Positions 2,561 through 46,469 of a stretch of 64,000 bases of DNA are shown here, one piece after another. The notes beneath the pieces were generated by a model. The model did not search any database and was not told the origin of the DNA. It worked only from the letters and a program-made list of their open reading frames with translations. Source of the stretch: Lysinibacillus pakistanensis (GTDB taxonomy: Bacteria > Bacillota > Bacilli > Bacillales_A > Planococcaceae); NCBI RefSeq assembly GCF_030123245.1, contig NZ_CP126101.1, positions 1,114,501 to 1,178,500 on the forward strand, read 5' to 3'. Position 1 is the stretch's first letter. Each line of letters begins with the position of its first letter. The translations under genes were made by a program, and so were the position numbers.

Positions 2561-2791
2561 GCGAAAGCGAAGCGTCTGAATACTTCCATCTCTATTAATG
2601 GCGAGATGAAAGCAGTTTTTATCTATTCAACGAGCCTACAAACACCCGCTGAAATAGAGAAACCAAAGACACGTGTAGTGACCAACATCGTGTTGGCCTA
2701 CATTCCCTGGCGAATGTCACTGATTTTGAAGGGGAGCTTTTAGAGAGAGCTTAAAAAAATATAAATTCAATTATGCTGGGGTGTAATTGAT
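2561..2791 (+). repeat. Structured intergenic repeat, copy 1 (before rsmD)
   Basis: Begins GCGAAAGCGAAGCGTC and ends in an AATTGAT box 31 bases before rsmD. It shares ordered blocks with copies at 27256-27546 and 46289-46469: the GAGATGAA block after a small hairpin, the CAAACACC..CTGAAA block, the GGCGaATGTCAC block followed by TGATTTTGAA, and the terminal ATTATGC..GTGTAATTGAT block. An internal hairpin CCAAC-atc-GTGTTGG is visible. This is the most diverged of the long copies. It fills most of the 332-base gap between 2491 and 2822. Confidence 0.7.
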
Positions 2792-2822
2792 ATGGAAGAA
2801 GAAAGTACGGTGATTGACATAA

Positions 2823-3383
2823 ATGAGAGTTGTAGCAGGAGAAAGAAAAGGAATGCCATTAAAGGCGATTGCGGGAAATACAACGAGACCTACAACTGAC
2901 AAAGTAAAGGAATCCATTTTTAATATTATTGGTCCTTTTTTTGATGGAGGGATTGCCCTCGATTTATTTGCGGGGAGCGGTGGTTTAGGCATCGAAGCTT
3001 TAAGCAGAGGTGCTGAACGAGCTGTATTTATTGAAAAGGATGCTAAGGCGTTTCAGATGCTACAGGAGAATATAAAAAAATGTCGGTATGAGGATTGTTC
3101 TGAGCTCTTTCGGATAGATGCTAAACGAGCTGTGAAAGCGCTATTAAAACGAGATATTACCTTTAAATTAGCTTTTTTAGATCCACCTTATCACCACAAG
3201 GAATATTATGATCTAGTACAAGTACTTATCGATAATCATAAAATCCAACAAGATGGCATTATTTTGTGTGAACATGCAACAGAAGTAGAACTACCACAAA
3301 GTTTTGGAGACTTTGTATTAAAGAGACAAGAAACATATGGCGGAACGATTATTTCTGTTTATCTTTATTCAGAGGGTGTTTAA
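2823..3383 (+). CDS. rsmD: 16S rRNA (guanine-966-N2)-methyltransferase RsmD
   Basis: A 186-residue SAM-dependent enzyme that methylates G966 (E. coli numbering) of 16S rRNA in the 30S head. The Rossmann-type motif I is LDLFAGSGGLGIEALSRGA, and the amino-methylase signature DPPY follows in FLDPPYHHKEYY. The N-terminal RVVAGERKG and TRPTTDKVKESIFNI blocks are typical of RsmD. This corresponds to B. subtilis ylbH, which also lies directly upstream of coaD. The ATG at 2823 has GGTGA nine bases before it; its leader carries a copy of the structured repeat. Confidence 0.95.
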   Translation: MRVVAGERKGMPLKAIAGNTTRPTTDKVKESIFNIIGPFFDGGIALDLFAGSGGLGIEALSRGAERAVFIEKDAKAFQMLQENIKKCRYEDCSELFRIDAKRAVKALLKRDITFKLAFLDPPYHHKEYYDLVQVLIDNHKIQQDGIILCEHATEVELPQSFGDFVLKRQETYGGTIISVYLYSEGV

Positions 3384-3401
3384 ATATCATTGAATAAAGG
3401 A

Positions 3402-3446
3402 AAGCCTCTGGCGGATGCCATGATATTACGCCAAGGCAAAATTGAT
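3402..3446 (+). repeat. Structured intergenic repeat, short copy (before coaD)
   Basis: Contains only the two outer blocks of the longer repeat: GCCTCTGGCGGATGCCA joined almost directly to ATTACGCCAAGGCAAAATTG. The variable interior present in other copies is missing. GCCTctGGC and GCCaaGGC could still form a small stem. It lies in the rsmD-coaD gap, with its end 28 bases before the coaD start, in the same orientation as the other copies. Confidence 0.7.
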
Positions 3447-3474
3447 TGTTGTGCAGAGGAAGAGGGAGAATAAG

Positions 3475-3966
3475 TTGTCAGAGAAAATTGCTGTAGTTCC
3501 TGGAAGTTTTGATCCTGTAACATTTGGTCACTTAGATATTATTAAACGTGCGGCAGATGTTTTCGATACTGTTTATGTAGCAGTGTTAAATAATTCATCG
3601 AAGCAGCCACTGTTTTCTGTAGAAGAACGCATGGCTTTAATGGCAGAGGTGACAAAAACATTGCCAAACGTGCGTATTGAAAGCTCATCTGGGTTGTTGA
3701 TAGACTATGCGAAAGAAAAAAAAGCAAAGGCTATTGTTCGCGGTTTACGTGCTGTATCAGATTTTGAATATGAGATGCAAATTACTTCGATGAACCGTTT
3801 TCTAGATGAAACCATTGAAACATTTTTTATCATGACAAAAAATCAGTATTCTTTCTTAAGCTCAAGCATTGTAAAAGAAGTTGCGAAATATGGTAGCGAT
3901 GTCAAAGAGCTCGTTCCTACATGTGTTGTAGCTGCCTTAAAAGAAAAATATGGGTTTACGAAATGA
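3475..3966 (+). CDS. coaD: Phosphopantetheine adenylyltransferase CoaD
   Basis: Transfers AMP from ATP to 4'-phosphopantetheine, the penultimate step of coenzyme A synthesis. The nucleotidyltransferase motif [14 protein letters not shown] includes T16-x-G18-H19, and the C-terminal [11 protein letters not shown] block matches the family. Length 163 residues is standard. The start is a TTG at 3475 behind GAGGGAGA; an ATG at 3442 would add an unrelated tail that overlaps the repeat element. It probably shares a transcript with rsmD and is followed by a terminator. Confidence 0.95.
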
Positions 3967-3971
3967 TAAAC

Positions 3972-44260: not shown

Positions 44261-44302
44261 TGGACACATGACCAATCAACTAGTAGGGAGGAGGAAACGT
44301 AT

Positions 44303-44845
44303 ATGGCACAAAATGAGCTAATAGATGGCCCATCCATGGCAAGAGCAGTAACACGTATTGCTCATGAAATTATTGAACGCAATAAAGGGATTGATGAATG
44401 TATCTTAGTTGGCATTAAAACGCGAGGTGCTTTTCTTGCAAAACGACTTGCAGAAAGAATTGAAAAAATTGAAGGTAAACCGATTCGTACAGGGGAGCTA
44501 GATATCACCTTATATCGAGATGATTTATCAACAAAGCATGCTAACGAACAGGCACATGTTGAACAAGTTGATATTGATTATCTTGTTGTCAATCAAAAGA
44601 TTATTCTTGTGGATGATGTTTTATATACAGGACGGACTGTACGCGCGGCATTAGATGCAATCATGGATTTAGGGCGACCTGCTCAAATTCAACTAGCCGT
44701 CCTTGTTGACAGAGGTCATAGAGAGCTACCAATTAGAGCCGATTATGTTGGTAAAAATGTACCAACATCTGGATCAGAGCGCATTATCGTAAATTTACAA
44801 GAAGTAGACGGAGAAGATTGCGTCATTCTTTATAAAGAAGATTAA
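44303..44845 (+). CDS. pyrR: Bifunctional pyr operon regulator / uracil phosphoribosyltransferase PyrR
   Basis: A 180-residue PRTase-fold protein that binds pyr leader RNA and has minor uracil phosphoribosyltransferase activity. The PRPP motif is [18 protein letters not shown], and [13 protein letters not shown] is typical. GGGAGGAGG supports the ATG at 44303; the open frame upstream runs through the attenuator. Separated by only 20 bases from the permease gene. Confidence 0.96.
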
Positions 44846-44865
44846 CTACAAAGTGAGGAAACATC

Positions 44866-46155
44866 ATGTCAAATGCAGTATTAGATATTAAGGATAAACC
44901 AACAACACTTCAACTAGTGACATTAAGTTTCCAACATATGTTTGCTATGTTTGGTTCAACAATTCTAGTGCCTCAGTTGGTTGGACTTAGCCCAGCAATT
45001 GCCCTTTTAACAAGTGGAATTGCCACATTATTCTTCTTATTAATAACGAAATTCCAGGTGCCGGCTTATTTAGGATCATCGTTTGCTTTCATTGCACCGA
45101 TTATTATTGCCACAAAAGCGGGTAGTGTTGGTAGCGCAATGATAGGCGCAATGGCAGTCGGAATTACGTATGGTATTGTGTCTCTTATCATTTGGAAGAG
45201 CGGCTATAAATGGATCATGAAAATATTACCACCAATTGTGGTAGGGCCAGTAATCATGGTTATTGGTCTAGGGTTATCAGGGACAGCGGTTAATATGGCG
45301 ATGAATGTAGATGGAGAATACAGCTTCTTACATTTCTCGGCTGCATTAGTAACATTATTTACTGCGATCATTTTCACGATTTTCTTTAAAGGAATTTTAA
45401 GTACAATGCCCATTTTAATTGGCTTAATTGTAGGCTATATTTATTCGATGATTATCGGCATTGTTGATTACACACCAATTGCTAAAGCAAACTTCTTTGC
45501 AAGTCCAGACTTTTTAATACCAGGTGTTCATTATGACTTCGAAATTACAACAAAGCTTCTTCTAACAATGGTGCCAATCGTGATTGTAACCATTTCAGAG
45601 CATATTGGTCACCAATTAGTTCTAGGTAAAGTTGTTAATCGAGATTACATTAAAGAACCAGGCTTGCATCGTTCACTGTTAGGTGATGGACTGGGTACAT
45701 TCATAAGTGCATTAATTGGTGGCCCACCGAAAACAACTTATGGTGAAAATATCGGTGTTCTTGCTATCACTCGTGTTTACAGCGTGTATGTCATTGCAGG
45801 TGCAGCAGTTGTCGCCATTTTACTGTCATTTTTCGGGCAAGCAATGGCAGTAATTGCAACGATTCCAACATCAGTACTTGGAGGCGTTTCGATCCTGCTC
45901 TTCGGTATTATTGCTGCAAGTGGGTTACGTATGCTAGTTGATAATCATATTGACTTTGGCAATAGTCGAAATTTAGTGATTGCCTCTGTTATTCTAGTCA
46001 TTGGTATTGGTGGAGCGAAGTTTGTGATTTCAGAATCATTAAGTATAGAGGGTATGGCATTAGCAGCTATAATCGGTGTTTTATTAAACGCAATCCTACC
46101 TGGTAAGAAGGAAGCTGAAAAACCAATACCATACAATCAAGAAACAAATTCATAG
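44866..46155 (+). CDS. pyrP: Uracil permease PyrP (NCS2 family)
   Basis: A 429-residue transporter with 13-14 spans. The FQHMFAMFGSTILVPQLVG opening, YLGSSFAFIAPII and GLGTFISALIGGPPKTTYGENIGV blocks define uracil-type NCS2 carriers. It imports uracil for salvage. There is no attenuator between pyrR and pyrP, unlike B. subtilis. Confidence 0.94.
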   Translation: MSNAVLDIKDKPTTLQLVTLSFQHMFAMFGSTILVPQLVGLSPAIALLTSGIATLFFLLITKFQVPAYLGSSFAFIAPIIIATKAGSVGSAMIGAMAVGITYGIVSLIIWKSGYKWIMKILPPIVVGPVIMVIGLGLSGTAVNMAMNVDGEYSFLHFSAALVTLFTAIIFTIFFKGILSTMPILIGLIVGYIYSMIIGIVDYTPIAKANFFASPDFLIPGVHYDFEITTKLLLTMVPIVIVTISEHIGHQLVLGKVVNRDYIKEPGLHRSLLGDGLGTFISALIGGPPKTTYGENIGVLAITRVYSVYVIAGAAVVAILLSFFGQAMAVIATIPTSVLGGVSILLFGIIAASGLRMLVDNHIDFGNSRNLVIASVILVIGIGGAKFVISESLSIEGMALAAIIGVLLNAILPGKKEAEKPIPYNQETNS

Positions 46156-46164
46156 TAGTACCTT

Positions 46165-46287
46165 TTAATGAATTGTCCAGAGAGGCAAAAAAAGGGAAGT
46201 TGTGGACATGCTAAAGCAGGAATAGATGCCTGCTGTGGTTTGTCACGCCTCCTTATGCCTCGTTGATGACATCAGCGGGGCTTTTAT
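46165..46287 (+). ncRNA. PyrR attenuator 2, before pyrB
   Basis: TTGTCCAGAGAGGCAAAA (46173-46190) is a PyrR-binding motif. A small hairpin GCAGG..CCTGC follows at 46216-46233, and the terminator stem GCCTCGTTGATG..CATCAGCGGGGC with CTTTTA lies at 46257-46286. It regulates the biosynthetic genes from pyrB on. Confidence 0.85.
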
Positions 46288-46288
46288 T

Positions 46289-46469
46289 ATCTTCATTCAT
46301 TCCACCCTTGAAGGTGAGATGAATGAAGATAAAGCCTCCGGCGGATGTCACGGATTTTGAAAGGAATGAATTGTGCTCGCACAATTCAAAATCCGGACGC
46401 ATTGTTTATCTGTGCGAAAGCGCAGTGCTAACGTAGCGACAGCAACAATTACGCCAAGGCGAAATTGAT
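46289..46469 (+). repeat. Structured intergenic repeat, copy 3 (between attenuator 2 and pyrB)
   Basis: Module 1 has perfect 12-base arms ATCTTCATTCAT (46289-46300) and ATGAATGAAGAT (46319-46330) around ACCcttgaaGGT. Module 2 opens AAGCCTCCGGCGGATGTCAC, has arms GGATTTTGAA and TTCAAAATCC with an inner GAATTGTG/CACAATTC hairpin, and closes with ACGCCAAGGCGAAATTGAT. It ends 53 bases before pyrB, the same distance as copy 2 from ftsZ. Confidence 0.8.

Follow-up and report, generated by a model that had tools for sequence, protein, structure and literature searches.

In the window studied here, a stretch of 64,000 nucleotides (positions 1114501-1178500 of the single 5.25 Mb contig) of Lysinibacillus pakistanensis, four copies of a structured repeat lie on the + strand, each 5' of a + gene: rsmD, coaD, ftsZ and pyrB. 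The original prediction had described these copies as sharing ordered blocks and pointing the same way as the downstream gene, and proposed either a regulatory RNA element or a mobile palindromic element. The blocks are present and far above chance, and all four window copies share the direction of the gene that follows. We consider that the repeats are probably copies of a small gene-less mobile DNA element, inserted next to a pentamer to which an internal part of the element corresponds, and not gene-control RNAs.

Copies in the window

Copies were scored with R1, a covariance model of the 3' module of the element (54 copies, 90 positions), and their boundaries were read from empty sites and sequence. 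Two copies are full. One (27258..27546; R1 76.2 bits) lies between ftsA and ftsZ and starts immediately 3' of the ftsA stop codon, which is included in the host target ATTAA (27253-27257); relatives have exact empty sites. The other (46291..46469; 78.7 bits) lies 5' of pyrB, behind the flank ATTAT (46286-46290), and the site is found without a copy, in diverged sequence, in the relatives that we designate G131, G120 and G118. The remaining two members of the predicted set are less complete. The degenerate copy 5' of rsmD (2537..2791; host target TTTAT at 2532-2536) is a weaker relative, with 43.4 bits at 2703-2791 and the empty site CTTTTAT-ATGG in G120 (the hyphen marks the insertion point). 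The copy 5' of coaD (3363..3446, start approximate, boundary by inspection) is degenerate and shortened, with 19.1 bits (E 0.04) at 3404-3446; only its first hairpin is retained at the same place in G136. The block GCCTCCGGCGGATGTCAC is exact at 27394 and 46334, has three mismatches at 3404 and gave 0 matches in 100 shuffles, and the end block occurs without mismatch at 46447 and with two mismatches at 3424.

Three features go beyond the original prediction. These are a match to the Bacillaceae-1 RNA (RF01690) nested in hairpin 2 of the ftsZ copy (27429..27496, +; 61.9 bits against a gathering score of 35); a nested GCGAAAGCG unit in the pyrB copy (46402..46445, +; it adds about 46 nt, and its edges are uncertain by 2 nt), absent from the G136 copy at the same place; and a pairing between the left flank and the element.

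The surroundings of the copies also deserve mention. A PyrR binding-site match (RF00515, 46157-46288) lies directly 5' of the pyrB copy, and the rsmD copy is likewise 3' of a terminator-like stem with a T-run; T-tracts of terminators are thus a possible source of TTTAT targets. In the coaD copy, the left arm (3358-3383) seems to encode the final codons and stop of rsmD (called at 2853-3383), with a similar reading in G136.

Presence, absence and insertion junctions

Empty sites were compared over the region of the window and with one wider query. Each of the four window copies is variable among relatives, with clean junctions at ftsZ and rsmD, a diverged one at pyrB and a partial one at coaD. 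A 2-kb ftsA-ftsZ query had a match in 32/32 genomes of the genus. Among 30 loci, the ftsZ site is filled in seven (this genome and six relatives) and empty in 23, where it reads GATTAA-CT(A/T)GAATG or nearly so; query match coordinates suggest an empty site in the other two genomes, G015 and G122, too. In G131, the nearest relative (95-96% identity here), the ftsZ site is empty. A tree of these genes requires four changes for the filled state, for example one gain and three losses; three changes are forced by well supported branches, and the base of the clade has a support of 81/82.

Some copies occur elsewhere and are missing in this genome, such as G118:9670 and G131:43855. Together with ftsZ and rsmD these give four clear junctions, at which a sequence of the form NTTAW pre-existed in at least one empty relative and no target duplication is seen. 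The empty site of G118:9670 has one A fewer in this genome and G131 than in G136 and G120, and the pyrB and G131:36717 sites are too diverged for junction reading.

Target and guide

Insertion is directly 3' of TTTAT, TTTAA or ATTAA (NTTAW), and an internal guide is the reverse complement of this target. The match was scored for 108 copies among the fetched loci that have a recognizable left arm starting CTT; others were dropped, and orthologous copies are included. Guide and target match at all five bases in 65 of these 108 copies, and the last target base, next to the cut, matches in 105. Over all positions, 489/540 match, compared with a mean of 415 and a largest value of 435 in 2000 shuffles. 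When one row per site was taken from this genome, 49 of the 103 copies were scorable, a few perhaps not by true arms but by chance ones, and 27 of the 49 have a full guide match. The last base is associated in the 38 copies with T or A on both sides (30, 2, 1, 5; p 2.4e-4). The right flank (76 copies) has no marked preference beyond A+T richness.

Anatomy and covariation

After the host target, the element runs through CTTC.TTCAG, a variable region, CTGAA.GAAG, the guide WTAAA, GCCTCCGGCGGATGTCAC, hairpin 2, GGACG, hairpin 3 and AT. The left arm CTTC.TTCAG and the right arm CTGAA.GAAG form the first helix, and a purine-rich bulge, e.g., AAAGGAG, is often present in hairpin 2. Lengths range from about 70 to more than 500 nt: a 70-nt copy (L332:16335-16404) has both ends and no core, and one insertion in G131 makes its site about 535 nt longer than in this genome.

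In the 54-copy alignment, helix positions are paired in 94.7% of 1651 cells, a proportion that falls to 25-46% if the partners are offset by 1-3 columns, and 179 cells are changed on both sides compared with 57.6 in shuffles. Such two-sided changes occur in 17 of 31 pairs, and sub-types differ along the helices with pairing kept. Two short helices (columns 1-9 and 14-70) lack two-sided changes and carry no weight as evidence. The linkers are unpaired yet conserved; in a DNA or RNA fold of one copy, the linker pairs with hairpin 3 instead. The earlier claim that pairing arms change and stay complementary is therefore confirmed on a larger sample, and covariation fits the idea of selection for structure rather than sequence.

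A functional RNA should favor G.U over A.C. Across four helices in up to 211 copies, each helix being included only above a minimum of Watson-Crick pairs and the count having no working control, we found 78 G.U and 109 A.C cells; the Bacillaceae-1 modules of 67 nt have 5 G.U and 5 A.C in 23 copies. A tRNA-like reading of the first module was also considered and dropped, as ARAGORN found no tRNA gene in the window.

Orientation and gene context

A gene for a dnaA-like protein lies at base 1, and the sign of the GC skew is reversed from the sample at 2.6 Mb to that at 2.8 Mb. With the terminus at 2.6 Mb, 94 of the 103 copies have leading-strand orientation (93 with 2.8 Mb), and so do 202 of the 287 genes sampled. 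Genes were called by a simple codon model, which missed some of them. Relative to the element, the upstream/downstream neighbors are same/same in 65 cases, opposite/same in 15, opposite/opposite in 11, same/opposite in 8 and incomplete in 4. Between leading-strand tandem pairs, 63 copies follow both fork and genes and four follow neither. The informative contexts are those where gene direction cannot explain orientation: in lagging-strand tandem pairs seven copies follow the fork and two the genes, in divergent pairs 13 are with the fork and two against, and in convergent pairs seven are with it and one against, so that 27/32 are leading-strand (p 1.1e-4). G118 has leading orientation in 46 of the 53 copies listed, out of 83 matched. 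Judged by these counts, orientation follows the replication fork more than the gene.

Among the 102 copies with a called downstream gene, 82 point at that gene and 20 do not. The distance to a co-oriented start varies from 14 to 891 nt, with one copy overlapping, and the downstream genes seen are diverse. In other genomes, 163 copies fall into classes of 104, 27, 19 (opposite to both neighbors) and 13 (between convergent genes); a further 16 loci are at edges and three inside gene calls.

Copy number, spread and nested modules

R1 has 103 matches in this genome at E up to 0.01, which is not a full census, because at least two pattern hits (486671, 2940945) are outside the list; a 17-base core, with no more than 2 mismatches allowed, gave 57 matches, and its reversed control 0. 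R1 matches occur in 63/120 genomes of the order (9/17 genera), where no more than 36 were counted in any one genome, and in 17/398 genomes of the class (7/145 genera), including two genomes outside the family. Among the matches listed, named records are mostly Lysinibacillus, Sporosarcina and Psychrobacillus, but Solibacillus, Metasolibacillus and a small number of Bacillus or related bacteria are also included. Hits in Oceanicella, Marinobacter and a Bacteroidia metagenome-assembled genome have no other part of the element. Plasmids and phages gave no match to the query, one type-A element; one viral contig (L457) contains the core sequence. Elements are also carried by records titled Arthrobacter beigongshangensis (L116, L127, L131, L141, L147, L150, L177, L178, L186, L198), a title that looks wrong. 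No earlier description of the element was found in the literature searched, whose scope left out most subscription journals, so one may exist.

In Rfam, the nested module alone was matched, and no known family covers the whole element. Of 55 Bacillaceae-1 hits in this genome, 31 are no more than 150 nt away from an R1 match, every one of them on the R1 strand, with the unit upstream of the R1 span in 19, inside it in seven and overlapping it in five. Several hits away from R1 are located in another repeat family (GGGCGACTCCTTGGGG ... CGGAACGGAAATCAACC), in which Bacillaceae-1 modules stand in either orientation relative to that family (L058, L060-L065, L069, L073). Thus the module in the ftsZ copy agrees with the Bacillaceae-1 RNA by its score, but here it is an optional insert in or beside repeats. 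The GCGAAAGCG unit has 164 matches genome-wide and also forms tandem arrays with a spacing of about 36-47 nt (G000:C1:1894520-1894870, 2107463-2108000 and 3356277-3356546). Elsewhere in the window, a T-box leader (RF00230, 125.4 bits; 35795-36015) is unrelated to the repeats.

Explanations considered

The mobile palindromic element of the original prediction is supported by presence and absence at fixed sites, by empty sites without duplication and by more than 100 copies. Its other suggestion, a cis-regulatory leader RNA that is selected for structure and controls downstream genes, draws on covariation and on the co-orientation of all four window copies and most genome-wide copies with the downstream gene. 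It has to contend with an orientation that tracks the fork, a variable distance to the start, copies that do not point at the downstream gene, including those opposite to both neighbors or between convergent genes, and diverse downstream genes; in addition, G.U does not appear to be favored over A.C, and 23 of 29 relatives lack the ftsZ copy. We regard this explanation as very improbable and rejected it on orientation, variable spacing and presence/absence; a regulatory RNA is unlikely to be the reason for the family. Random orientation together with a lack of covariation had been named as the outcome that would speak against regulation. Orientation proved strongly non-random and covariation clear, and both can be explained without a regulatory role. 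Single insertions, such as that between the PyrR site and pyrB, may affect expression.

Two other kinds of mobility were weighed. A conventional double-stranded element resembling a miniature inverted-repeat transposable element, moved by another transposase and with palindromes kept by template switching in replication and not by single-strand selection, would agree with the failure to link any enzyme to the element and with similar numbers of G.T and A.C mismatches, as from mutation alone. Four clear junctions without target duplication, the conserved unpaired linkers, and the guide-target covariation and fork-following orientation, neither of which such an element would lead us to expect, make it unlikely in our judgment. 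It is also conceivable, at quite a low probability, that the element is RNA-mediated, with a transcript that pairs with the 5' flank, in the manner of group I or II introns, and inserts into single-stranded lagging-template DNA. The flank pairing, fork orientation, absent target duplication and covarying structure would fit this as well, but G.U does not appear to be favored over A.C in the element strand, no ribozyme is among the Rfam matches, and copies and modules are short.

Several observations weigh against the reading that we prefer, a gene-less mobile DNA element. The enzyme is the chief difficulty. This genome has no PF07282 (TnpB) match, and its sole Y1 transposase match is a broken gene, a region with several stops (L395, G000:C1:4258431-4258753). 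Y1 matches occur in 78/120 genomes of the order, but there is none in G012, G079 and G116, each with at least 36 copies. Of 32 Y1 loci listed, which are a part of all Y1 matches and of which two are the same gene in this genome, 31 are without the element end patterns; in the other, the left end is weakly matched, and the two ends occur together in none. A Y1 transposase was rejected as the present-day driver, as these matches gave no link to the element. No driver gene was evident by eye among the called proteins of five local clusters of copies, on which no family search was run. Nor was a long autonomous copy found: 122 of 242 cores have a left arm within 4 kb, 121 of them at <200 nt and one at 476 nt. 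Other points concern the guide, which is located 3' of the first helix and not 5' of the hairpin as in IS608, and which was left unscored in 54 of the 103 copies here, these having no recognizable left arm. In G119, from another genus, 75 of the 97 copies listed (125 matched) fit two replichores that were fitted to the same data (mean 59 and largest value 68 in 100 shuffles). The repeated ftsZ losses could also be slippage or recombination.

Proposed mechanism and comparison with known systems

At the level of sequence comparison, the copies show insertion 3' of NTTAW without duplication, a reverse-complement guide, presence and absence within the genus, structure kept amid sequence change and an orientation that follows the fork. 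From the insertion pattern, guide and orientation we infer that the element works like IS200/IS605 single-strand transposition. In the excised strand, the first helix would leave the guide unpaired beside the joined ends; the guide would then pair with NTTAW where the target DNA is single-stranded, and after strand cleavage and joining at this point the helix would be longer by the target bases. The occurrence in leaders would follow secondarily from the use of intergenic sites between tandem genes of the leading strand.

For IS608 and ISDra2, it has been worked out how DNA-DNA pairing directs targeting. According to PMC5934647 and PMC6006769, IS608 inserts 3' of TTAC, recognized by pairing with a guide on the 5' side of a hairpin foot, and the template used by IS200/IS605 elements is that of the lagging strand. 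With these elements and the ends-only PATEs, the present element shares insertion on the 3' side of a short fixed sequence that persists as left flank, the absence of target duplication, a base-pairing guide, hairpins and a fork-linked orientation, as far as these are described in PMC5934647, PMC6006769 and PMC7290912. For an IS605 element of Sulfolobus islandicus, PMC11043419 gives TTTAA itself as the predicted site of insertion. Fork bias is not universal in IS200/IS605, to go by the Halanaerobium data in PMC7290912, where 10/22 tnpA are on the leading strand. The present element differs in a guide that is 3' of the first helix and continuous with it, in a long composite body with nested modules, and in that no Y1 transposase with its ends is among the 32 loci listed. 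Because guide position and a Y1 element sharing the ends are defining features of IS200/IS605, and neither agrees here, we do not file the element as a member.

REP/BIME repeats with TnpAREP (RAYT) are likewise gene-less and present as many intergenic hairpin copies per genome, but the GTAG or GTGG given for them in PMC6006769 was not seen, by inspection of the 54-copy alignment, at the element hairpin foot. The element further differs from them in having no Y1 match in the three high-copy genomes, and in its clean single insertions and defined ends. BOX of Streptococcus pneumoniae, which consists of modular intergenic stem-loop repeats, is similar by description. We know of no target guide or NTTAW rule for BOX or for bcr1 of Bacillus cereus. 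The latter resembles the element, by the description in PMC2267715, in its intergenic stem-loop repeats and mobile character.

A more specific proposal, which we put forward tentatively and hold to be doubtful, is an orphan DNA-guided single-strand transposon of about 70 to more than 500 nt that locates NTTAW targets through an extension of its helix onto single-stranded DNA, exists in variants in which guide and target have changed together (TTTAT, TTTAA) and uses an enzyme outside the Y1 TnpA family, as some high-copy genomes have no Y1 match.

Significance

In this genome, the Rfam "small RNA" Bacillaceae-1 is largely a repeat module, and structured-RNA calls in Lysinibacillus and Sporosarcina leaders need care for this reason. 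The copies form a natural record of fork-linked insertion. They also offer a putative DNA-DNA pairing rule in which guide and target are seen changing together across about 100 natural copies, with clean empty sites, and which is directly testable. Should the enzyme prove to be other than a Y1 transposase, this would be a new system.

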